Shown: positions 31,907-44,359 of the stretch, piece by piece | Position numbering within the stretch: position 1 is the first letter of the stretch | Layout: each line of letters starts with the position of its first letter | Virus record (IMG/VR): IMGVR_UViG_3300045007_000064 | Span: 124,236 to 171,128 of that record | Source: a virus | Length of the DNA: 46,893 nucleotides | Reading direction: 5' to 3' (one strand) | Notes under the pieces: generated by a model | What the model was told of the DNA's origin: nothing | What the model saw: only the letters and a program-made list of their open reading frames with translations | Database searches by the model: none | Translations under genes and position numbers: made by a program

Positions 31907-34900
31907 TTACGGGGTGTCGAGGTAGTCTCGAACGTCAGCTCGATCCTGGTCACTAGCGCCCATCATATCAAGAAGTGCGTCCAGTTCGGTAATCGTCGGA
32001 CCCTTTGGACCAAAACTTCCCAGGGTTTCCAGAATCTGCTCGTAACGCAGACGGCTGAGACCAGGATCAAGGATACCACGCATAATCAGGTTACGAATTA
32101 GCTGCGGCATGTCCGTGTTGTCTAGGGACTCTAGAACATCCGTGCGCTCCTCGCGGGTGATGTCCTGGTAGGAGGCGGGGCGGATGTTGGACTCCAGGAT
32201 ATCGATGGTCTCGTTACCCGGGGTCACGACCGTCAGGTTTCCGTTGTCATCATCGAAGGCCACGACACCGTTCTCCACGACACCGTTACGGTCGAACTCA
32301 ACCAGATCACCACGGCGGGTGTTCTTCGGCTCCGGGGTCTCCGGACCGCGGATTGCCGGAGCGTTCCATAGCGCGATGTCTGCATCACCCGGAACCACGA
32401 AGCTGTCCACGTCCGCGTAGCCGCGTCCGTCCGGACGTGCTGCGTGAATACGGTAGCCACCGTCACCCATGTTCTCCACACGGATAATCGAGTCTACGTG
32501 CTGGTTTCCGTCATCGTCCATACGAACGATCATCATGCCCGGGCGAGCTTCGGATGCACGACCAATACGCGGCGTGATTTCACCGCTCTGAATCATACCG
32601 GCAATCGTCGGCTGGTCCTTGGGCACCGGAACATTCGAGTAGCCGGAAAGCGATCCACGAGGCGTGAAGCGAAGGCGGCGGCTCTGTGGTAGGTCACGGC
32701 GCGGGCGTTCCTTGGTGACAACCGGCTCGTCTGCTGCTGCGTTCGGAACGCGGAAGCGGCGAGCAAGCGCCTCTGGGCTGGTGCGCCACTCTTCACGCTT
32801 GGAGAAGAACGGCAGGCCCAGAGCCGAACCCGGCTCAGCACGGCGTAGCGTCTGCGCAGAACGCTTGACCCAGTTGCTCCAGGTTCCGTCCGAGTTCTGA
32901 AGCTGGACCCATACGTGGTCACCGTAGGTGTGGCCCTTACCGTCCGTGTTCTCCTTGACGTAACCGACAACACGACCGCGCTGCACCTGACCGTAGCTCG
33001 GGTTGGCGCGGCGCTTCGGGTTGAGCTGTCCGTTCGGAAGCCACCAGTCGAGTTCCTGGTGCCAGTCAGTCCAGTCAAACTCCATGCCGATTTCAGCGGT
33101 CTCACCGTCGTACATCTGCCACGGGTTCGTGCCGTTCGGACGGTAGGTGTCCTGCGCACGACCGATGACAGCCTGCATGATGGTGTCAATGGCCTTGGCA
33201 CCCGGGTCAATCTGACGGAGGTGGTCTTCGATTCCGGCGAGGTCTGCGTCCCCATTGCGGATGTGCGTAGCCACCGCGCTCAGAAGTACGTCGAACTTCT
33301 CGTCACCTGTCTCCGGAAGCGGTGCGTCCGGGTTGCCGATGTCACCGAGGAAGTCGTCAGCCGGGAAGCCCTGGGTCCCCAGGTTCTCCGTGGGCTGGTC
33401 CTTGCGGCGCGTGATCGATCCCGCGGGGCTGGAGCCGTTGATCAGCTTGCGAGCCGTGGTGATACGGTTCTCTAGCGCCTCGTACGAGTGCCATTCGCTG
33501 TTGCTGATTCGCTTGGCGCGGCGGTTACCTACCTCGTCCGTCTCCATGACGTAGGCCATGAAGCGATTCTTCTGGGTACGACGAACAATGGCATCATAGC
33601 GCTTACCCTTATTGGTCACGCTATCCACAACCAGGTCACCGTTCTCCAGGAGACGAGCCTCGGGGTGATCCTCGTTCAGGTACTCTTCCTGGACACGACG
33701 CCAGGTCAGGTCCTCATCGAAGACGAAATCGGGGTCATCGCGCTCGGCGTTGACAACTTCAACGTCTGCGGTGTTCAGGTACTCAGGCTGGTCCGTCTCC
33801 GGGCGTGCAACCGTGGTGGTGTTTGCGCGGTTGGGCTTGCCGTCTAGCGCGTTGTCCAGAGCGGAAAGCTGGTTGTCGGAAAGCATGCCAGAGTTCAGCG
33901 CCTCGGTGATGACGCGCTGCTCGTCAGGGGTCAGCTCCTTACCCTGCATCTTGGCCTTCAGCGCTTCGATGCGGTTCTCGTGTCCGCTGGAGACGTTGCG
34001 CGGGTCGTCCTTCTGGTCGAAGACACCTCCGGTACCCTCACGCGGATCAATGTCGCTGAGGGTTTCGTCAACGCGAGCCGCGTCCACCAGAACGCGCTGC
34101 GCGGTCTCCTCGAAGGTCTCCGGCTCCGGGGCAGCCTCGACATCGCTCTGCGCCTCTAGCGCAGCCATCTCGGCTTCTGCCTCAGACTGGCGCTCCAGCG
34201 TACGAAGCTCGTCCTCCAGCGCGTCACGGCGAGCCTCCAGCTCGTCGTACTCCTCCGAGTCCCAGTCGTCGGACTCGATGAGCATCTGACGGCGCTCAGC
34301 CTCGGTCTGCTCCAGGCGCATACGGGCCTGAGCAATCTGTGCGTCAAGCGAGTCGTCCAGAATAGCAGGCGTATCGGCCTCAGGCGCGTCCTGTACGGCC
34401 TCGGGAGCCTCGGGAGCGGTCTCGGGTGCCTCAACCGGTTCTGGAGCCTCAGGGAGGCTTCCACGGTTCTCTCGGTCACGCATGTTCCAGCCGAGGTCGC
34501 CGTTGAAGTCCATCGGCTCGTTACCCAGGGCGCGGTTCAGGGCATTCTCCTGAATCTTACGCTGACGCTCCAGCGTGCGGACGCGGGACAGGTGCTCGGC
34601 CTCGACCTGCGGGTCAGTAGCCAGCTCGGCAGCAGAAATCTGGTTCTCGATTTCCGCGTCGATTGCCTCAAGCTCTGCACGGGCTGTAGCTGCGGCGTCT
34701 GTGTTACCTGGCTCCTGGTACTCCGGGCGCTCGGGAGCGGGGGCCGCCGCAGGCTCCTCCTTCCGGCGCTCGGCTTCTACGATAGCGGTGCTGGCGGCAC
34801 GACGACCTTCTTCCGAGGAGTCGTATACGCGCACCGGAACCTCAGTAAGCCCTGCGCGCTTAGCGGCCTCGGCGCGGTGGTTACCGTCCGTAATCATCTC

Positions 34901-37306
34901 GCTACCATCCGGGTACTGCTCGACCTGAATGGGTTCGCCCTCGTATCCGTTCTGACGGAATCGCTCAGTAAGCTCGTCTACAAACTCCTCGTTGATTCCC
35001 GAAACCATACGGATGTTGTCCAGGTCAGCCACCGGACGAGTCTCGTCTGTGATCGGACCCTGGATGCGGTCTAGCTGCTCTTCGCGACGGCGTGCAACTT
35101 CCGGGGCCTCCGGACGGGTGCCAGCCTCGTCGGTCGCGTAGTGCGAGCGAGAACCCTGGGTGTCGAAGTGGTCACCGCGGGTGACGTAGCCGGTCGGTTC
35201 ACCAGAGCCGTCACGCTTTAGCTGCTCCCACTTTCCGGCTTCGTTCTTGCGGTAGATACGCTTATCACCGCTCTCGTCATGCTCCTCAGCGATGAGGGAG
35301 CCTGCCGGAGCGTTCTTGACTTCTTCCTTGGTCGGAGCCAGCTTGTTCGCGGCCCACGCCGAAGGATCAACCTCCGGCTCCGCGTCTGCCTCCGCCTCCG
35401 GGGCGTCAGCCTGTGGGGCAGCGTCGGACTCGTTGCGTTCCTTCTGACGGGCTTCAAGCTCCTGGAACTGCTCCTCCAGGTCGGCAACCTCGTCAAAGAG
35501 TCGGTCGATGTCCTCCTGAGCCTTCTGGTCCTCTTCCTCGGAGGTCGAGGCGTTCAGACGGCCCAGTGCGTCCGACTCGCGCTTCTGCGCATCACGAAGA
35601 CGCTCCGCGACCTCATTGATACGAGCGTCCAGGTCCTCGTTGTCTGGAGCAGAATCCGGCGTCTCCTCAGGAGCGGTGCCGCGCTCACGAGCGAGACGAG
35701 CGTCTAGTGCATCCGCCTGCTCATTGAGCGCGATGATGTCCTTGGGGTCCCCGGCTACGTCCATAGCCGCCTGCACCTTGGCGCGGCGGTCCTTCAGGTC
35801 CTCTACTGAGCCTGGGGCTGCTGCGGGTTCGCTGGGGCGCTCGTCTGCGGCGCGGGGGCTGTCTCCGGCGTTGTCGGCTGGGGCGTCTCCTGCGGGGCGG
35901 GCTGGCTCGGGGTCGGGGGTGTCTGAGACGGCTGCTGGCCCCCCATCTTCGCTACGAGGCTCTGGGCGAGCTGCGTCATCTGCTCCGGGGTTAGCTGGCT
36001 GAGATTCGACGGCATCGGGATTACGGTCTTCGGCATTGGGGGCCTCCGCGGAAGTGTCACCTTCCAGGTTGGGGTTTACGTCGGGGGAATTGGGGTCCAC
36101 GGCCTTGTCAGACACCGATACCTCGGAGCCATTCTGGAGGTCGAGAACCGTGCTCTGACCCAGGCCACCAGCCTGCGCCTTCGCGTTGTCTAGAGTGTCA
36201 GCAGAGTTGTAGATTTCTGCCGTGTTGTTGTCGGTGTCCACAACCAGGCGTGCGCCGCCCTTACCGAGCTGTTCCTTCTCGGCGGTCATGAAGTTCGCCA
36301 GGCCCTCGGGGGTAATGTCGTTGGTGCGCTTACCGGTGGGTACGAGGAATCCCTCAGGAGAAACCTCAAACGTGCTGGTGTCGATGGCACCCGTGGAGGC
36401 CTGCGGAGCCTGGGCGGTCTCAGCAGCAGGCGCAGCCTTGCGCGCAGCCAGAGCCTCGTCCGAGTCGTTGCCTTCGGGGTCGTACGGCTGGCCCTCGGCT
36501 TCGAGTTCCTTCTTCAAGGTCTCGTTCGCCGTCATGGCGGTCTGCTTGGCTCCCAGCGGGGCCTTCTCGTTCAGGAGGGTACGCTCGTTCGCCTTGATCT
36601 GCTCGATCTTGGAATCACGGTCACGATTTGCCAGAACCTCATCGTTGTTCTGCGCCAGACCGGTGTAAGCGGAGTCCCCAGACTCCTCGCGCTGGAGGTC
36701 AACGTCGGAGACCTTCTTGAACGCCTCAGCCATCGAACGCTGCGGCTCAGCCTGACCGGGGTTGGCGCGGTGGTCCTCTAGGAGAACGTTCTCGTCGTTT
36801 CCACCGAAGTGAACACGGAAGTCACCGTCGTCGGTCTGGATGACCTTCTTGCCGCCGTAGGTTCCCGGCTGAGCAACCCAGCCCTCGGGAGCCGGGTGAA
36901 CCTGAAGCTCATTGATGTTAGGGATGTCCTCGTCCGCACGCTCGCCTACGGCCTGACCGTCAGCGTTACGTCCGAGCTGAATGCCGCGCTCAGCGAGCTG
37001 GGCCTCAGAGAGGTTGGCTACGAACTCCTGCGCGTTGGCGGAGGTGACATCATAGAAGCCGTCAGGCAGGCCGTTCGGGTCCTTGGCTACGAATACCTGT
37101 CCGGTGTTTGCGTCCTTGGCACCGACGAACGAGCCGATTACCGAACGTGCCGCGCCGTCAGCACCGCGCACCTTGAACTTGACGCCGCGACCCATCTCGA
37201 TCCAGCGACCGAAGCGGTCACGCCACTGGAGTCGGGCGCGAGCGGATCGGGCAGCGCGGCTGTTGCCTCCTGCGGCAACGAGTGCGGAAAGAGAAGTGTC
37301 GAACAC
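31907..37306 (-). CDS. Giant head-associated protein with ParB/sulfiredoxin-like domain
   Basis: This protein has 1799 residues. It starts at GTG 37306, with GAGGA seven bases upstream. The N-terminus has ARARLQWRDRFGRWIEMGRG, a pattern seen near the start of other actinobacteriophage head proteins and inside the neighbouring protease protein. Long low-complexity stretches rich in A, E, P, D and coiled coils occur at about 420-680 and 850-1110. At about 760-845 is a ParB/sulfiredoxin-like domain, with V-A-D-L-D-N-I, then QYPDGSEMITDGNHRAEAAK and VPVRVYDSS; the D-G-N-H-R loop is the family signature (nucleotide-binding or nuclease activity in relatives). The C-terminal 600 residues contain several small SH3-like beta domains. 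The place between portal and protease suggests an internal virion protein that may be ejected with the DNA. Confidence 0.83.
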   Translation of the reverse strand: MFDTSLSALVAAGGNSRAARSARARLQWRDRFGRWIEMGRGVKFKVRGADGAARSVIGSFVGAKDANTGQVFVAKDPNGLPDGFYDVTSANAQEFVANLSEAQLAERGIQLGRNADGQAVGERADEDIPNINELQVHPAPEGWVAQPGTYGGKKVIQTDDGDFRVHFGGNDENVLLEDHRANPGQAEPQRSMAEAFKKVSDVDLQREESGDSAYTGLAQNNDEVLANRDRDSKIEQIKANERTLLNEKAPLGAKQTAMTANETLKKELEAEGQPYDPEGNDSDEALAARKAAPAAETAQAPQASTGAIDTSTFEVSPEGFLVPTGKRTNDITPEGLANFMTAEKEQLGKGGARLVVDTDNNTAEIYNSADTLDNAKAQAGGLGQSTVLDLQNGSEVSVSDKAVDPNSPDVNPNLEGDTSAEAPNAEDRNPDAVESQPANPGADDAARPEPRSEDGGPAAVSDTPDPEPARPAGDAPADNAGDSPRAADERPSEPAAAPGSVEDLKDRRAKVQAAMDVAGDPKDIIALNEQADALDARLARERGTAPEETPDSAPDNEDLDARINEVAERLRDAQKRESDALGRLNASTSEEEDQKAQEDIDRLFDEVADLEEQFQELEARQKERNESDAAPQADAPEAEADAEPEVDPSAWAANKLAPTKEEVKNAPAGSLIAEEHDESGDKRIYRKNEAGKWEQLKRDGSGEPTGYVTRGDHFDTQGSRSHYATDEAGTRPEAPEVARRREEQLDRIQGPITDETRPVADLDNIRMVSGINEEFVDELTERFRQNGYEGEPIQVEQYPDGSEMITDGNHRAEAAKRAGLTEVPVRVYDSSEEGRRAASTAIVEAERRKEEPAAAPAPERPEYQEPGNTDAAATARAELEAIDAEIENQISAAELATDPQVEAEHLSRVRTLERQRKIQENALNRALGNEPMDFNGDLGWNMRDRENRGSLPEAPEPVEAPETAPEAPEAVQDAPEADTPAILDDSLDAQIAQARMRLEQTEAERRQMLIESDDWDSEEYDELEARRDALEDELRTLERQSEAEAEMAALEAQSDVEAAPEPETFEETAQRVLVDAARVDETLSDIDPREGTGGVFDQKDDPRNVSSGHENRIEALKAKMQGKELTPDEQRVITEALNSGMLSDNQLSALDNALDGKPNRANTTTVARPETDQPEYLNTADVEVVNAERDDPDFVFDEDLTWRRVQEEYLNEDHPEARLLENGDLVVDSVTNKGKRYDAIVRRTQKNRFMAYVMETDEVGNRRAKRISNSEWHSYEALENRITTARKLINGSSPAGSITRRKDQPTENLGTQGFPADDFLGDIGNPDAPLPETGDEKFDVLLSAVATHIRNGDADLAGIEDHLRQIDPGAKAIDTIMQAVIGRAQDTYRPNGTNPWQMYDGETAEIGMEFDWTDWHQELDWWLPNGQLNPKRRANPSYGQVQRGRVVGYVKENTDGKGHTYGDHVWVQLQNSDGTWSNWVKRSAQTLRRAEPGSALGLPFFSKREEWRTSPEALARRFRVPNAAADEPVVTKERPRRDLPQSRRLRFTPRGSLSGYSNVPVPKDQPTIAGMIQSGEITPRIGRASEARPGMMIVRMDDDGNQHVDSIIRVENMGDGGYRIHAARPDGRGYADVDSFVVPGDADIALWNAPAIRGPETPEPKNTRRGDLVEFDRNGVVENGVVAFDDDNGNLTVVTPGNETIDILESNIRPASYQDITREERTDVLESLDNTDMPQLIRNLIMRGILDPGLSRLRYEQILETLGSFGPKGPTITELDALLDMMGASDQDRADVRDYLDTP

Positions 37307-37377: not shown

Positions 37378-39117
37378 TTACTGTCCGGGTTCTGCGAGCG
37401 GGAATGGCGGGGCGTCATCCCCAGGAGCAACCGGCTGCTCCGGTTCAGGCATGATGTCGCCCACTGTGGGCTGCATCGGGTCCTGCGGCGGTGCGTCTGA
37501 AGGCTGTGACGTGTCCAGCGGGGCGTTGGGGTCAGCAGGTACCGCACCCGTTCCTCCGTTGAGAATGTCGTTGACCTGTCCCGGAACCGGGGCAACCGAG
37601 GTAGCCTGTCCTGCACCGCGAGCGGCGTCGATGACATCGGGGGCCAGAACACGAAGCAGGGCCTCGGTGAGCTGCGGGTCCAGTCCACCCTTCTCCAGCA
37701 GCATGCGGAGCACAAGCTCCTTGCCGGTGGGAGCATCCTGATCTGCGAAGCCGTGGGCACGACGCCAGGTGTCACCCGAGATTGCCATCTTCTCATATCC
37801 GGAGTCGGCGTCAGCCGCGCGGTCATTGCGGGTCGCAACAGCGCTGGCGTCATACCAGACAGCGATACGGGATACGTCAGCCTGGCTCCATCCGTCGTTG
37901 ATGAGGGTGGGGCGCAGGTACATCGTGGTGAAGGCGTCAGCCAGCAGGAGCAGCATCGGCTCAATGTGGGCCTTGTACAGCGACTCGTCAATCTGGACGG
38001 CGTTGTTGTACTTCACATTTGCCAGACCGGTAACGGTGTCCTTGGGAACATCGAGACCCTGGAGGATACGCTCTAGAACGCGGTCAGCACGCGCAACCAT
38101 GGCGTCATCAAACGGACGGTCGAACGAGATGTGCTTCAGGTCCTTACCCAGCTCGGCAGGGCCGCGGATCAGAAGAGGCACAACGCTGGCGGCGCTGGAC
38201 TCATCCTCGATGGGCGTGGACATCGCCAGGAGAAGTTCTTCCTGGAACTGGTCGGCTACGTCCTCCGGCGTGGGGGCGTCCTCGTCCTGCTCTTCGAATA
38301 GACCGGAATCCGCCTCGGCGGAAGTAGACAAGCCGTCCGGAACGTACAGGATACCGGCATTCAGACGCGAACGGTGCGACCCGCGGAAGGTGCGGTCCAG
38401 AAGCAGAAGCTCCTCGCACAGCGCCAGCAGACCGATCATGTTCGTGTCCGGGTCCTCGCTGAAGCGGGGGTGCGGACGCCAAATGCGTCCCATGAACGCA
38501 TCGGACGGCAGCGGGATCGCACCCTTGGGCAGTGCACCGCCGCCGTTGCCAGGCTTGATCGCGCGGCGCGGGTAGATAGCGTAGTTGCCCTTGGCGTCAA
38601 CCTTCAGCTCGTCTACCGAGCGAATGTCCCAGCTCTCCGGCAGGCCCTGACCGATGCGCTCGGGCACCTGGACCAGGTAGCACTCACCGGCAACGGCGAG
38701 GTTCAGCGCGGCGTCACGGAGAAGTCCTGCCTGTCCGCCGAAGGCGGAGTCCAGACGCTCTAGTGCACGGCGAGCGGCGTCTGCAAGTTCTGCGTCAACC
38801 TTCTCAGACAGCGCCAAAGGTACGGGAGACTCAGCCGGGTCTTCCACGACCGCCACATATAGGCGAATTCGTGAAACAACGCTTGCCACGAGCTGGAAGG
38901 CGTACTTGACCTCGGAAATGGCGTCGTAGTACTCCCACGCCGCCTGCTGGACAGCAACGATCTGCCCGCCCTGCGCCTGACGGAACAGCTCCGCCTCGGT
39001 CTTGTCCTTGAGACTCACGCGCGCAGCAGCAGCGGTCATGCCTCGTACGGAGTTATACGGTACGGGCGCAACCGGCTGCGTGCTCGCTGTCTCGCGGCGG
39101 AAGATGTTGCCTGCCAT
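37378..39117 (-). CDS. Portal protein
   Basis: This 579-residue protein forms the ring at the capsid vertex through which DNA is packaged and leaves. Portal signatures are: A-W-E-Y-Y-D-A-I-S-E-V-K-Y-A-F at about 65-80, then a middle part with LNAGILYVPDGLS, the helical F-Q-E-E-L-L-L-A-M-S-T-P-I and S-F-D-R-P, followed by LEGLDVPKDTV-like TGLANVKYNNAV. The tail is proline-rich and disordered. The ATG at 39117 overlaps the stop of the membrane protein gene (TAATG), with AAGGTAGG before it; an open frame reaches 39249 without a better start. The middle part recurs as a separate short gene at 40947-41168. Confidence 0.88.
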   Translation of the reverse strand: MAGNIFRRETASTQPVAPVPYNSVRGMTAAAARVSLKDKTEAELFRQAQGGQIVAVQQAAWEYYDAISEVKYAFQLVASVVSRIRLYVAVVEDPAESPVPLALSEKVDAELADAARRALERLDSAFGGQAGLLRDAALNLAVAGECYLVQVPERIGQGLPESWDIRSVDELKVDAKGNYAIYPRRAIKPGNGGGALPKGAIPLPSDAFMGRIWRPHPRFSEDPDTNMIGLLALCEELLLLDRTFRGSHRSRLNAGILYVPDGLSTSAEADSGLFEEQDEDAPTPEDVADQFQEELLLAMSTPIEDESSAASVVPLLIRGPAELGKDLKHISFDRPFDDAMVARADRVLERILQGLDVPKDTVTGLANVKYNNAVQIDESLYKAHIEPMLLLLADAFTTMYLRPTLINDGWSQADVSRIAVWYDASAVATRNDRAADADSGYEKMAISGDTWRRAHGFADQDAPTGKELVLRMLLEKGGLDPQLTEALLRVLAPDVIDAARGAGQATSVAPVPGQVNDILNGGTGAVPADPNAPLDTSQPSDAPPQDPMQPTVGDIMPEPEQPVAPGDDAPPFPLAEPGQ

Positions 39118-39392
39118 TATCCTACCTTCTGGTAAATGAGGCCTGTTACAGCCGATCCCGCTAGGGGAAGTCCAGCTACCATCATACCAGTAGGTGAAAC
39201 TACGTACAGAATAGCGAGAGGAATCGCTACCCAGAATGACATACACCACGGGCAGCCGAGTAGATATGCGAGCTTTCCACCAGGCTTGACCTTGGAGTAC
39301 GCCCAGTCACGCGGCCCATCCAGGATTTCGTCCTCGATGATGAGCCGCGTGGCTCGATAAACGGCGAGCAGAAATACGATGAAGCGGATCAT
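39117..39392 (-). CDS. DUF1360-like small membrane protein
   Basis: This 91-residue protein has an N-terminal hydrophobic segment (IVFLLAVYRATRLI) followed by the E-D-E-I-x-D-G-P-R region, then LLGCPWCMSFW, and two hydrophobic segments at about 53-67 and 69-84. The Y-R-x-T-R-L-I-x-x-D-E-I and C-P-W-C-x-x-x-W patterns match the DUF1360 family of phage and bacterial membrane proteins of unknown role. The ATG overlaps the upstream stop by four bases (ATGA), and its own stop overlaps the portal start. The position beside the portal is typical in actinobacteriophages. Confidence 0.82.
   Translation of the reverse strand: MIRFIVFLLAVYRATRLIIEDEILDGPRDWAYSKVKPGGKLAYLLGCPWCMSFWVAIPLAILYVVSPTGMMVAGLPLAGSAVTGLIYQKVG
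39181..39189 (-). promoter_or_regulatory. Candidate extended -10 promoter before portal
   Basis: TGGTATGAT on the minus strand, identical to the element at 8718-8726, lies inside the small membrane protein gene, 64 bases upstream of the portal ATG. No -35 is apparent. As it is inside coding sequence, the match could be coincidental. Confidence 0.3.
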
Positions 39393-40168
39393 AGCTTCCA
39401 GGGCCAGTTTCCGTGAATCTCGGTCTTCTCCAGGCCCGAGTCGTAGTAGTGATCTAGAAGCGCTCGGACGTAGTTGTCGTGGAGGTTCATCCGGTTCAAA
39501 ACCATGCTCGCCTCGCGGAGCCGGTACTGTAGCGGGTGGCGCTTCAGCGCACGATGCAGCTTCTTCAGCATCTTGGTCTTGCGCGGGGTGGTCGTCACGA
39601 TGACGCGAGGTCGATCACCAGTTCGGACCGCGGTGAGGAGGTTATCCCAGGCGTCGTTTACATCCTTTGACTTTGCACGACGCCACGAAGCAACCTCATC
39701 TGCCCACGCGAAATCAGCACCGACTCCCCGAATAGCGTCCGGTTCCTCCGAGGAAACGCAGAAAGCAACGGAACCGTTAGGCCACTCCAGGAGGCGCAGA
39801 CTGGGCTTGTATGTTGGGGCATCAGGGTTATGCAGTCCGTAGACGCCGAAGATTCCAGATTCTCCCTCCACCAGAACCTCGCGCACATCCGCTGCGGTAC
39901 GCGCAACCAGAAGAAGCCGGGACCCGGGGTTCTCTTCCGCGAACTTGATCGCCTCCTCGGCTCCGGTACGGGTCTTACCCGAACCGCGGCCTGCCGCGTA
40001 AATCCACACACGCCAGAGAGAATCCTGGGGCGGAATCTGGTCAGGGCGGCGCTCGGCCTCCCACTTCTCCCGGCCCTTCAGGCTCTCGATCTGGAGAAGC
40101 TGCTGGTCGCGGTCCTCTCCGGGCGGCATGCTCTTGACGGTTTCTTTCAGTGATCCTTTGTAGAACAT
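39389..40168 (-). CDS. Truncated TerL-like packaging ATPase (259 aa)
   Basis: This is a terminase large-subunit ATPase domain without a nuclease domain. Walker A AGRGSGKT is at 59-66, L-L-L-V-A-R-T-A-A-D-V-R-E-V at 85-98, Walker B FAWADE at 153-158 and the coupling motif TTTPR at 192-196. It ends at EKTEIHGNW, where the nuclease domain would begin. It is plainly a paralog of the full TerL in this window, sharing V-A-R-T-A-A-D-V-R-E-V and V-E-G-E-S-G-I, but lacks the intein at that point. ATG 40168 overlaps the upstream stop (TGATG), with GGAAGGA at good spacing. It may be a second motor or assembly subunit, or a decaying copy; all ATPase residues look intact. Confidence 0.85.
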   Translation of the reverse strand: MFYKGSLKETVKSMPPGEDRDQQLLQIESLKGREKWEAERRPDQIPPQDSLWRVWIYAAGRGSGKTRTGAEEAIKFAEENPGSRLLLVARTAADVREVLVEGESGIFGVYGLHNPDAPTYKPSLRLLEWPNGSVAFCVSSEEPDAIRGVGADFAWADEVASWRRAKSKDVNDAWDNLLTAVRTGDRPRVIVTTTPRKTKMLKKLHRALKRHPLQYRLREASMVLNRMNLHDNYVRALLDHYYDSGLEKTEIHGNWPWKL

Positions 40169-40758
40169 CAGAACGTCCTTCCGTCTCCTGCTCGGGAGAC
40201 GATTGTGTCGGGGTGTAGCTTTGTTGGCTGCGTAAACAGGTACTTCTCCGCCATGGGGTATTCCTTGGCGATTTCGGCGGCATCGAAAACTTCGTCTGCC
40301 CATACATAGTCGAACATCATTCCACGGGCGGCTCCCCGAAGGAAGGCGTCCTCGGACATGCCCCGCAACGAGCGCTTGCTGCTGCGGTCGCGAATCGATA
40401 CAGCCCGCTCTACTCCATCGATTCTGTCGTAGTCAAAATGTCCAGACCACAACTCCGCGGTGTTCATGAAACGCTTGAAGGACAGGTCCATCTCGTACCC
40501 GCCTCCGCTGAAGATGCACAAAACGTTGGCTAGGTTGAAGAACTTGTTCCACGCCCAATACTCGCCCGCATAGCTCTTACCGCTATTAGGCGGAGCGACA
40601 ATCGTCCAGTACTTCCAATCGGAAGATGCAGGTTCGATCTGGAATGGGTAGGCGTTCAGTTCCCAGCTATAGTTCCACTCGTCATCATCGTAGAAGGCGC
40701 GGCGAGCTGAGCGTTCCGGCTCGGGGAGCGCTTCAATCTGCTGACGGAGAGTCTTCAT
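40168..40758 (-). CDS. Second truncated TerL-like ATPase (196 aa)
   Basis: This is a shorter and more diverged terminase-type ATPase. After a W-x-Y-W-T-I-V strand come Walker A APPNSGKS (55-62), S-E-D-A-F-L-R-G-A-A-R-G (135-146, like the D-x-x-L/I-R-G-V of the other two) and Walker B YVWADE (151-156), then a TQPTK motif at 176-180 in the place of the TTTPK coupling motif. It ends soon after, without nuclease domain. It starts at ATG 40758 with GGAAGA just upstream, inside the end of the preceding gene, and is coupled to the next gene by TGATG. Together with its neighbour it could form a separate packaging or nucleic-acid motor; that is inference. Confidence 0.78.
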   Translation of the reverse strand: MKTLRQQIEALPEPERSARRAFYDDDEWNYSWELNAYPFQIEPASSDWKYWTIVAPPNSGKSYAGEYWAWNKFFNLANVLCIFSGGGYEMDLSFKRFMNTAELWSGHFDYDRIDGVERAVSIRDRSSKRSLRGMSEDAFLRGAARGMMFDYVWADEVFDAAEIAKEYPMAEKYLFTQPTKLHPDTIVSRAGDGRTF

Positions 40759-40954
40759 TCTCGTCTTCCCGTAGTCGCTTCAACTGATCCAGACTGGACT
40801 GGGGGTTCCGAGGCTTTTCAGCTAGCTTCTTTGTCCAGTACTCGATTTCCTCTCGGAGGAGCGTTCCTGTCAGGGGAATAACCCGCTCACCAGCCTCCAG
40901 AGTGACCTCGAAGGGCGGCCCAATATGCAGCCCTCCCTCTTCTACACTAGGCAT
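40733..40954 (-). CDS. Small hypothetical protein in packaging region
   Basis: This 73-residue acidic protein (from MPSVEEGG) contains a beta segment with FEVTLEAGERVIPLTG and a charged helix EEIEYWTKKLAEK. I chose ATG 40954 because AGGAG is 12 bases upstream and it overlaps the previous stop (ATGCCTAG); ATG 40966 is possible, and the open frame extends further without support. No family is recognised. It overlaps both neighbours, suggesting it is co-translated with the ATPase genes. Confidence 0.6.
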   Translation of the reverse strand: MPSVEEGGLHIGPPFEVTLEAGERVIPLTGTLLREEIEYWTKKLAEKPRNPQSSLDQLKRLREDENEDSPSAD

Positions 40955-41168
40955 GATCCGTGTCATCTCCTGGGCAGTAGCAAATCCGCGGCATCGGCAG
41001 AGGGTTGTCCTCATCGGTAATAGGGGTAGACATGGCAAGCAGGAGCTGATCCTGAAACTCTTCCTCTGTCGAGACAGGCTCATCCGGATTCTCACGGGCG
41101 CTCTTCGGGATGTGGAGCACACCCGCGTCTGCGATCTGTTGCTCGGTGAACTTGTAGATTCTAAGCAT
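40947..41168 (-). CDS. Short portal-like fragment
   Basis: This 73-residue gene (from MLRIYKF) encodes ADAGVLHIPKS, then E-E-E-F-Q-D-Q-L-L-L-A-M-S-T-P-I-T-D-E-D. It aligns with the portal of the same genome at NAGILYVPDG and F-Q-E-E-L-L-L-A-M-S-T-P-I-E-D-E, but with a shorter spacer and without the rest of the portal. After this the frame ends with CYCPGDDTDHA. The ATG overlaps the previous stop and has AAGGA some 14 bases upstream. It is either the remnant of a second portal gene or a small protein derived from one. DNA similarity is low, so the copy is old. Confidence 0.65.
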   Translation of the reverse strand: MLRIYKFTEQQIADAGVLHIPKSARENPDEPVSTEEEFQDQLLLAMSTPITDEDNPLPMPRICYCPGDDTDHA

Positions 41169-41538
41169 CTTCGGGTCCCGGGTCCTTGCTCGATCCCATG
41201 ATCTTGAATGGACGCCAGCTCCGCAGCCGCGATCCGCAGCCACAGGAGGCGTCCTTACGCCAGGCGAGCTTCTTGCCCGAGACGGTTGTCACGTACGAAT
41301 CGATGTGTACGCTGCCCTTGTAGTGCGTGGTGGGGTCAATCTCCTCGGAGAATACGACCTGTGGCCCCGCTACATCGTCCACCGCAACGGTCACTCGGTT
41401 TCCGGATACAACAACCCGGGTGATCGCCAGGTGCGCGGCATCCGGCGTCGGCGGACGGCTCTTCAGCTCTTCCACCGCCACAGGGAAGTCGGCAGCCGTA
41501 ATCACCAGCGTAGCTGGGAATGTGTCTTCGCGAATCAA
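41161..41538 (-). CDS. Hypothetical protein with C-terminal CGCG motif
   Basis: This 125-residue, mainly beta protein starts at TTG 41538, which has AAGGAG six bases upstream and overlaps the previous stop (TTGA). The C-terminal part reads KKLAWRKDASCGCGSRLRSW, a basic stretch with paired cysteines that could bind metal or nucleic acid. I do not recognise a family. It is co-transcribed with terminase genes. Confidence 0.72.
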   Translation of the reverse strand: MIREDTFPATLVITAADFPVAVEELKSRPPTPDAAHLAITRVVVSGNRVTVAVDDVAGPQVVFSEEIDPTTHYKGSVHIDSYVTTVSGKKLAWRKDASCGCGSRLRSWRPFKIMGSSKDPGPEDA

Positions 41539-42032
41539 CTTACTCTCCTTGCCATTGCGCGGTAGCTGACGTTCGCGGCGTCCGCGAGGTCAGCGATGGT
41601 TACGCGCTCGTCATGGTGCAGTCTAACACAAAGCTCGGTCAATTCCCTATTCGACTTTGCCGAGGCGTGTCCCGGCTTCATCGTGGCGCGGTACTTGCGG
41701 GCGCTGGGAGCCAGCTCCTTGATCCGTGTAGCCTCGGCTGTCGTGAGCGGGCGTCGGGGCTTCTTCGGAGTGCTGGCGGGGGTCTGGAGCGTTGGGATAG
41801 GTGTAGTTGGCAGATCAGTATACGCGGACGCAATGGGAATCGGTGAATTGATCCAGTAACGAATCGTGGATCGTGCCCGAGGCGGGTCAAACGACTCCCC
41901 GATACTCCGGAGTGTCCACCCCGCCTGGTACAGCATCTTCGCTCGCGCGAATAGCTCGTACCCGGTAAGGTTCTGTAGCAGTTCTGCTTCGTAGGAGGGC
42001 AACGACTGCCCTCGCGCGGATCGGCGTGTCAT
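41535..42032 (-). CDS. Helix-turn-helix protein, possible small terminase subunit
   Basis: This 165-residue basic protein has two likely HTH segments: AGWTLRSIGESFDPPRARST at about 36-56 and ERVTIADLADAANVSYRAMA at about 143-162, linked by a proline/threonine-rich spacer. The gene follows TerL with an ATGA overlap. Small terminase subunits recognise the packaging site with HTH domains and often neighbour TerL, but usually lie upstream of it, so the assignment is tentative. An alternative is a transcription regulator of the structural genes. Confidence 0.7.
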   Translation of the reverse strand: MTRRSARGQSLPSYEAELLQNLTGYELFARAKMLYQAGWTLRSIGESFDPPRARSTIRYWINSPIPIASAYTDLPTTPIPTLQTPASTPKKPRRPLTTAEATRIKELAPSARKYRATMKPGHASAKSNRELTELCVRLHHDERVTIADLADAANVSYRAMARRVS

Positions 42033-44359
42033 CGCTTCTTCATTCCTCCAATACGGAATCCTCCGAATCCCGTGGCACGGGGTCCGGTTCGCTGGGTGCG
42101 CTGGCGGAGGGCATTGTTGTTGCCAAGGTTGATGGTTCGGTTAGCCATGCCCTTCGCACGAATGGGGCCGCTCCAGAATCCCTTAGGCGGGGCAATCAGG
42201 AGGGCGGTGAGTGCGTGAACGAGCGCGTCCACGCGGTCAGGGGACTTGCGAGTGACCTCAGGCTCCCAGGTCACCATCTGCTCCTCCAGGTCAACGTGCC
42301 GTCCAACGTGGACAACACGACCCTGCTGATACGCGAGCACGACCGGCTCGGCGCGGAGCTTCTTTCCGACCTTCGAGTGGACCTCGTAGACCGGAATGTT
42401 CGGGTCGATCTGGTGGATGGCGTTCTTCACCATCGCTCCACCCTGGTTTGTCTCCGCTACAATCGGGGCACCCCACTTGTAGTGCATGTCCACAACCTTC
42501 TGCGTCCACACCTGGGGCGAACCCTGCACCGATGCGTCTTCCAGAACCCACGCTCGGCGCTTGTAGAGGTCGGAATCGGCGGTGGCGGAGACCACAACGA
42601 TTCCACACTCGTCACCAGGCTCGTCCGCGACCGTGGGGTCCACACCGATGACGCGCAGAGGCGTGTAAGGCGGCAGCTCCAAGTTGTGCGGGATCATATT
42701 GTCGTCCCACAGCGCGCCCTCGACCGCCTCCAGCATCTCACCGTTCAGCTCCTGCATAGCCAGACGGGTACCGCCGTACACTCCGGTGATCGCGTCCAGG
42801 TACGCGCCCGCCAGGTTACCGGCATTGTCGTACGTAGAACCGCGAGTGACCCAGATTCGACCGGCACCTTCGACATCCTTGCGCCGATCCGGGTTCTTCT
42901 TGTGCTCCGCGATCAGGTCGAACAACACCTTGACGCGCTTAGGGGTGGTGGTGGCGAGAATCTGGGGGTTGTTTCCCAGACGAGTCGCGATACGGAGGTT
43001 CTCCCACGCAGAAAGCTCGCCTTCCTTGGTCGGCTGACGCCACGCGGCTACCTCGTCGCCCCAGGCGTAGTGCGCCTGCACACCACGAAGCGAGTCAGGC
43101 TCGTCTGCGGAGGTGCAGAAGGCCCAGGAGCCATTGGGCCAGATCAGACGACGGATGGACGGGCGGTATTCGGGGCGCTCCGAGGGTGGGGAGACGTTGA
43201 TGATACCGGAATTGTGGGTCTTGACGTACGTATTGTGGATCAAGAACGTGTTATCGGGCGAATCAACCGCGATGCAGCGTACGGGGACACTCTCAACCGG
43301 TGTAATCGACTGAATCGCGCGCAGAGCGCCCTTCTTGGAGTAGTGCGTGACTGTCCAGGAGTCGATTCGGCCCTCACGCTCGACAACTCGGGTCCATTCT
43401 CCGGTAGTGTACCCAAGTGAGGACGCTAGACGGCGGATATTCGCCCGAATCTGGGTCGTATTGGTGCCAGGAATCTCCGATTCCTCCCCATACGCCTGTC
43501 GAGCGTCAACGAGGCCCTTCAACACGGCCTCGCGGACCTTCGTGGGTGCCCAGAAGTAGTCCTCGGGGATTCGGCGGGTCTCCGCGTTGTGCTCCGAGAA
43601 TTCAGAGCGCAGCGGGCGCTTCCCGAGGAGGTATCCGACGTTGTAGGGGGTGTATCGGAGCTGGATATCCTCTTCACCCTGGAGTTCGATAGGCTCGATG
43701 TAGTATCGGCGGTCCAAATCCTTCATGATTTCTTCTGTCGTCATCACGAAGGTCTTCTTGGACAGGCGACCCGTCCCCCAGTGCCCGTCACGGCGGCGAA
43801 CCGCCCACTTGTGGTTCGCGTCTGCGATGATCGGGGTATCTTCACCCGCGACCTTGACAGCGTAGCAGGGGCGGTTGTAGAGTACAGGGAAAGCTTCGGT
43901 GACCTTAGCGGGCTTGCCGTCTCCGCCGACAACGAGGTCACCCTTCTTCAGCTTGCCGATGGGGGTGAATCCTGTAGGACTAATAGGGCTGGCTACGGGG
44001 GTGTCGAGCGCCAGGGCCTCACCTTCAACGATAACCTCTCGCACGTCAGCCGCGGTACGGGCAACGAGGAGGAATCGCAAGGGTCCCTGGCTAGTCTCTC
44101 GCGCCTTCTCGCGAATCCACTCAGCCGCCATGCGTGTCTTACCGAAACCACGACCGGCGAGTGCGAGGCCTACGTCCCAGGAGTCGTCTCGGGGCGGTAC
44201 CTGCGCAGGGCGGCTCCAAAGAGACCAGTCCCAACGGAGCTGTTCTGGGTCGAACCCCGCGAGTGCTTCTTCCGCCTCGTCGGGCGGGAGCAAGGAGATT
44301 TGCTCCATGATCGACATCGACGCGGGGTCGAGGAGGGAAGTGTTCGGAAACTCAGACAT
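42029..44359 (-). CDS. terL: Terminase large subunit containing an intein
   Basis: This is a 776-residue precursor. Removal of a 269-residue intein (residues 115-383) leaves a 507-residue TerL, a normal size. ATPase motifs: Walker A AGRGFGKT at 68-75, before the intein; Walker B YAWGDE at 431-436 and TTTPK after it. The nuclease domain follows, with RVIGVDP, then VAETNQGG and SPDRVDALVHAL, the acidic residues of the RNase H-like fold. The protein drives DNA into the prohead and cuts it to length. It is the first gene of the minus-strand block. A TG-extended TACAAT (44369-44377) would start the RNA only about three bases before the ATG; a GGAAG is present upstream but may not be transcribed. 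Confidence 0.95.
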   Translation of the reverse strand: MSEFPNTSLLDPASMSIMEQISLLPPDEAEEALAGFDPEQLRWDWSLWSRPAQVPPRDDSWDVGLALAGRGFGKTRMAAEWIREKARETSQGPLRFLLVARTAADVREVIVEGEALALDTPVASPISPTGFTPIGKLKKGDLVVGGDGKPAKVTEAFPVLYNRPCYAVKVAGEDTPIIADANHKWAVRRRDGHWGTGRLSKKTFVMTTEEIMKDLDRRYYIEPIELQGEEDIQLRYTPYNVGYLLGKRPLRSEFSEHNAETRRIPEDYFWAPTKVREAVLKGLVDARQAYGEESEIPGTNTTQIRANIRRLASSLGYTTGEWTRVVEREGRIDSWTVTHYSKKGALRAIQSITPVESVPVRCIAVDSPDNTFLIHNTYVKTHNSGIINVSPPSERPEYRPSIRRLIWPNGSWAFCTSADEPDSLRGVQAHYAWGDEVAAWRQPTKEGELSAWENLRIATRLGNNPQILATTTPKRVKVLFDLIAEHKKNPDRRKDVEGAGRIWVTRGSTYDNAGNLAGAYLDAITGVYGGTRLAMQELNGEMLEAVEGALWDDNMIPHNLELPPYTPLRVIGVDPTVADEPGDECGIVVVSATADSDLYKRRAWVLEDASVQGSPQVWTQKVVDMHYKWGAPIVAETNQGGAMVKNAIHQIDPNIPVYEVHSKVGKKLRAEPVVLAYQQGRVVHVGRHVDLEEQMVTWEPEVTRKSPDRVDALVHALTALLIAPPKGFWSGPIRAKGMANRTINLGNNNALRQRTQRTGPRATGFGGFRIGGMKKR
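43211..44017 (-). other. Intein in TerL with class 3 signature and decayed endonuclease
   Basis: The insertion runs from A115 (ALALDTPVAS, in place of the usual Cys/Ser) to T-H-N 381-383, followed by S384. The junctions are set by the intein-free paralog at 39389-40168, which reads V-E-G-E-S-G-I without a break. It has the W-C-T set of class 3 inteins: H183 and W185 in A-D-A-N-H-K-W, C362 in VRCIAVDS, and T381 before the final HN. The middle (about 235-325) resembles a LAGLIDADG endonuclease, but the second motif reads LKGLVDARQ, with R where the catalytic acid should be, and the first motif is lost. Splicing is likely, homing unlikely. Confidence 0.88.

Follow-up and report, generated by a model that had tools for sequence, protein, structure and literature searches.

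The window analyzed here, a stretch of 46,893 nucleotides forming the right end of a 171-kb viral record, carries on its minus strand a head-to-tail gene block with mostly overlapping ends, in which the large terminase subunit TerL is followed by a helix-turn-helix (HTH) protein, a 125-aa protein, two small ORFs, two TerL-type ATPase genes (termed here a1 and a2), a DUF1360 protein, and the portal protein. TerL (positions 42,029-44,359) is a full large subunit bearing, by Pfam, a Terminase_6N ATPase and a Terminase_6C RNaseH-like nuclease domain, and its length of 776 aa is explained by a 269-aa intein (residues 115-383; positions 43,211-44,017) lying between VEGE and SGI, the removal of which gives a mature protein of 507 aa. 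The original prediction was right in placing a complete ATPase/nuclease TerL beside the extra copies but overlooked this intein, which begins with Ala and is directly followed by Ser, and whose homing-endonuclease part looks degenerate, with a Pfam Hom_end match of only E = 0.059. The intein is present in every complete TerL of the a1-carrying lineage, including that of a contig without extras (L104), and is absent from the TerL of Actinomycetia phage DSL-LC01, from other TerLs, and from a2, which keeps an uninterrupted version of the insertion site. The adjacent HTH protein (165 aa; 41,535-42,032), with weak HTH matches and 61-84% conservation in relatives, is a candidate small terminase (TerS) judging from its position and HTH; a PDB sequence search returned no useful solved relative for it or for the portal, and a profile search of the genome contigs with the HTH alignment gave no match. 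The 125-aa protein (41,161-41,538) has orthologs in all relatives (59-78%). Of the two small ORFs, both encoding 73 aa, one (40,947-41,168) resembles portal residues 242-308 by BLASTP and portal HMM and is referred to below as the mini-portal, and the other (40,733-40,954) is a relative of A3Wally gp77 (BLASTP, 54% over 37 aa). Beyond a1 (196 aa; 40,168-40,758) and a2 (259 aa; 39,389-40,168), the block ends with the membrane protein (91 aa; 39,117-39,392; Pfam DUF1360, 2.3e-10) and the portal (37,378-39,117; phrog_776, 1e-94). Downstream of the portal, on the same strand, lies a gene for a 1,799-aa protein (31,907-37,306), residues 771-844 of which weakly resemble ParB_N.

The two extra ATPase genes were confirmed at the predicted positions, on the minus strand, together with the Walker A, Walker B, R-G linker, and T-x-P motifs ascribed to them, which read APPNSGKS, ARG...WADE, and FTQPT in a1 and AGRGSGKT, IRG...WADE, and TTTP in a2. 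Their proposed membership of a coupled gene group between TerL and portal also holds, the a2 start ATG at 40,168 overlapping the a1 stop (TGATG) within a block of overlapping genes whose order recurs in relatives. No Terminase_6N match was found in the 171-kb record beyond TerL, a1, and a2; an NCBIfam search returned no hits. An ASCE ATPase domain of the TerL type, carrying both Walker motifs and the coupling motif, is clearest in a2, which matches Terminase_6N above the cut-off (E = 5e-15), shares 41% identity with the TerL of the window across the ATPase domain, and holds this domain whole, ending where the domain ends. The a1 protein scores just below the cut-off (E = 0.0014), and its place in the TerL ATPase family is supported in addition by its homologs and by a fold search. 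Neither protein has a match to Terminase_6C or to the lineage nuclease HMM, so that the C-terminal RNaseH-like nuclease of a full TerL is missing from both, as had been claimed; in a1 the lid region downstream of the coupling motif is missing too. The structure comparison suggested with the prediction came out in its favor. The AlphaFold2 model of a2 (pLDDT 93.2, pTM 0.89) best matches the T4, P74-26, D6E, Sf6, and HK97 TerLs in the PDB; the a1 model (pLDDT 81, its central part poorly predicted) comes closest to the P74-26 and D6E TerL ATPases, a result favored by the presence of TerL rows in the a1 alignment. The TerL N-terminal segment is common to a1 and a2. By sequence alignment, a2 also has the trans-acting arginine finger of TerL: R147, 11 residues before the catalytic glutamate and found in all canonical a2 proteins, aligns with P74-26 R139, a confirmed trans-arginine finger (PMC5727402). 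In the window's a1, R145 is equally spaced from the catalytic glutamate, and this arginine is absent from L020 and Cece a1. Mapping of P74-26 R101 onto a2 was dropped as not alignable.

In tblastn searches, Microbacterium phages about 186-195 kb in size yielded relatives of a2 and a1. The expected trio of one TerL and two extras occurs, in the same gene order, in Cece (genes 59/63/64), Zooman (60/64/65), and Big4 (64/68/69), and also in IMG/VR contigs L002 and L020, whereas Pumpernickel (75/78) has one extra, contig L103 has a1 only, and L104 has none, yet carries a TerL with the intein and a portal with 73% identity. A3Wally (73/78/79/80) and one close relative have three, so that copy number ranges from 0 to 3. 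In L106, from an earlier branch whose TerL lacks the intein, a 182-aa ATPase-like ORF occupies the corresponding slot. No other ATPase-only ORF was found beside a full TerL in further IMG/VR loci (80 from the a2 search together with those derived from HTH, portal, and TerL searches), among which contigs L014 and L048 end inside a TerL; searching the viral sequences again with closer a1 proteins revealed no additional locus, and a plasmid search gave only distant terminase-like matches. The portal tree places L104 within the a1 carriers (100/100) and L103 among carriers of both genes (100/98); the absence of both genes from the former and of a2 from the latter thus read as losses, and the extras are dispensable. 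Several "terminase" genes were already visible in the GenBank labels of these relatives: Cece 63/64, Zooman 64/65, and A3Wally 78-80, which are orthologs in identical gene order, are annotated as "terminase large subunit" with an ATPase or nuclease domain. The "nuclease domain" labels, which existing annotation gives to one copy, are wrong, as none of these proteins matches a nuclease. In the literature consulted, nothing relevant was found about extra TerLs or about these phages, and it held no description of two ATPase-only paralogs without nuclease, one constrained and the other degenerating at its active site, or of their distribution.

The two genes differ in how they have been maintained. 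In the tree, a2 forms one clade (100/100), which clusters with L021 and the TerLs of the lineage (95/96, with a long-branch warning for A3Wally gp80 and RW gp97c); a fresh duplication or frameshift of TerL is ruled out, a2 being an old monophyletic paralog. Canonical a2 members do not vary in Walker A (GRG[SA]GKT), R-G, the DE of Walker B, or TTTP, and the catalytic residues are kept in all six. Between Zooman and Big4, the single phage pair compared, a2 has a dN/dS of 0.025 (bootstrap 0-0.063), against 0.004 for the TerL exteins, 0.057 for the intein, and 0.032 for the portal; in this pair a2 is under strong purifying selection, in the portal range, and with open reading frames it shows none of the relaxed constraint or broken frames of a decayed copy. 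The idea that the extra copies are in use is therefore well supported for a2 and less so for a1, for which the signs of decay are mixed: the frames are open and dN/dS is 0.21 (0.13-0.32, same single pair), yet the ATPase site is dead in A3Wally gp79 (GAT instead of GKT, DG instead of DE) and altered in Cece gp63 (DD at Walker B). Across nine a1 proteins, the first 70 residues and the segment from Walker B to the end align, and the hypervariable middle does not. Zooman and Big4 differ sharply in this middle part (L004 7001-7585 vs L010 7001-7585) amid neighboring proteins that are about 98-99% identical, which suggests allele exchange within the gene. Over codons 61-150, dN is 0.25 and dS 1.1, compared with dS of 0.39 and 0.24 at the ends, so a divergent allele was probably imported, the raised dS being by itself no proof of diversifying selection. 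As for the outcomes named beforehand as speaking against the prediction, namely a fold unlike TerL or absence from relatives with decay, neither was encountered for a2, and the second applies in part to a1 through the loss in L104 and the motif loss in A3Wally. A3Wally gp78 (L005 6358-6981) is a third TerL-derived copy, in which the Walker B pair is lost.

Tailed-phage packaging motors are described as homomeric rings of TerL, and in the T4 model the groove that moves DNA sits in the nuclease domain. Against this background, we tentatively propose, with a probability of about 0.4, that a1 and a2 are accessory terminase subunits that arose by TerL duplication, a2 as an active, non-cutting ATPase and a1 as a regulatory adaptor. 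TerL copies duplicated in this phage lineage would have lost their nuclease to give a1 and a2, which would then act as accessory subunits of the packaging machine. The a2 product is most likely an active, oligomer-competent ring-type ATPase that could take a place next to TerL or assemble into a ring of its own, hydrolyzing ATP without cutting DNA. For comparison, the isolated ATPase domain of D6E TerL forms pentamers and, freed of the nuclease, reaches a kcat of 457.7 per minute as against 7.8 with it (PMC5727402), and T4 motors run with inactive subunits (PMC9958956). For a1, in which the core surrounding Walker B is retained but the catalytic residues are lost in some phages, a role as a non-motor adaptor or regulator is more likely because it lacks the lid; it conserves the TerL N terminus, the region (first 23 residues) through which P22 TerL binds TerS (PMC9611059). 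The proposal builds on homology, fold, synteny, gene overlap, selection on a2, and the tolerance of a1 to active-site loss, and under it the two products would be expected to co-assemble with TerL, the HTH protein, or the portal and may affect packaging. It is supported by the presence of the overlapping genes inside the TerL-to-portal block in all carriers and by a second, independent nuclease-less TerL copy in Caulobacter phage RW. Counting against it are the lack of both genes in L104 and of a2 in L103, the catalytic loss of a1 in A3Wally and its hypervariable middle, and the fact that a2 would be without the domain that carries the DNA-moving groove in the T4 model. A more specific version, in which TerL shares its ring with nuclease-less a2 and a1 serves as adaptor, giving a hetero-oligomeric motor unlike the homomeric ones described so far, is unlikely. 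The motor may thus receive help, tuning, or protection from its own paralogs. A lineage of culturable phages that retains additional TerL ATPases without a nuclease, of which a2 is strongly constrained, offers a natural test of mixed or paralog-regulated rings.

The mini-portal bears on how the block arose and on what else its genes might do. This ORF matches portal residues 242-308 with BLASTP E values down to 5e-8 (in a small set) and scores 22.3 bits against the portal HMM, compared with 5.1 for the best of 500 shuffles; the versions in relatives are weaker (2.6 to 11.6 bits), and none is found in Pumpernickel. The order TerL, HTH protein, 125-aa protein, mini-portal, a1, a2, membrane protein, portal looks as if the stretch from TerL to portal had been duplicated in tandem long ago and had since eroded, and we infer that such an event took place. 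It matches what would be left if a1, a2, and the mini-portal were eroding remnants kept by chance, a view to which the broken catalytic motifs of A3Wally gp78 and gp79, the altered one of Cece gp63, and the loss of both genes in L104 would also conform; reading frames intact across large divergence, strong purifying selection on a2, and the conserved ends of a1 nonetheless make chance survival unlikely.

The adjacency of a portal-like fragment and TerL copies also evokes mimicry, since Avs1-4 recognize both TerL and portal (PMC12931631): a1, a2, and the mini-portal might be decoys bound by Avs-type sensors or TerL-hijacking satellites instead of the real proteins. The Avs3-bound TerL structure 8dgc is among the fold matches of a2, and a copy number of 0 to 3 and a hypervariable a1 middle would suit such a function. 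On the other hand, neither a sensor nor a satellite of this kind is known for these phages, a PADLOC search gave no match, a2 is fully catalytic by sequence and strongly constrained, the raised dS of a1 points to allele import rather than to demonstrated diversifying selection, and in most relatives the mini-portal resembles the portal only weakly; we regard decoys as somewhat unlikely. The same lineage would also serve to test naturally whether TerL and portal are being shielded by phages from the sensors that read them. An ATPase domain without nuclease and, in a1, without lid, with conserved ends around a center free to vary, could also mean that the copies have left packaging for another DNA-linked task, such as the handling of genome ends, TerS-DNA loading, or cleavage control. 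Such a change of function is quite unlikely, given that no carrier has them outside the block of packaging genes.

With regard to known systems, a1 and a2 resemble the lineage TerLs and DSL-LC01 TerL (Terminase_6N/6C) in ATPase fold and motifs but lack the nuclease and, in a1, the lid, and they accompany the full TerL instead of replacing it. An ATPase-only polypeptide is likewise the feature shared with split terminases, but in this phage a complete TerL, nuclease included, is encoded alongside, and a nuclease-only partner was not found; a split terminase is ruled out by the Terminase_6C domain of the full TerL. Closest in kind is Caulobacter phage RW gp97c (L012 2445-3113), also a nuclease-less TerL paralog adjoining TerS and the full TerL. 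It differs in being an independent duplication, sister to RW's own TerL, in which the Walker B D is replaced by E. RW and three near-identical phages carry this paralog, and in a selection test within the group the gp97c genes were identical. In the RW relatives, a terminal repeat of 2,940 bp ends within the gp97c gene.
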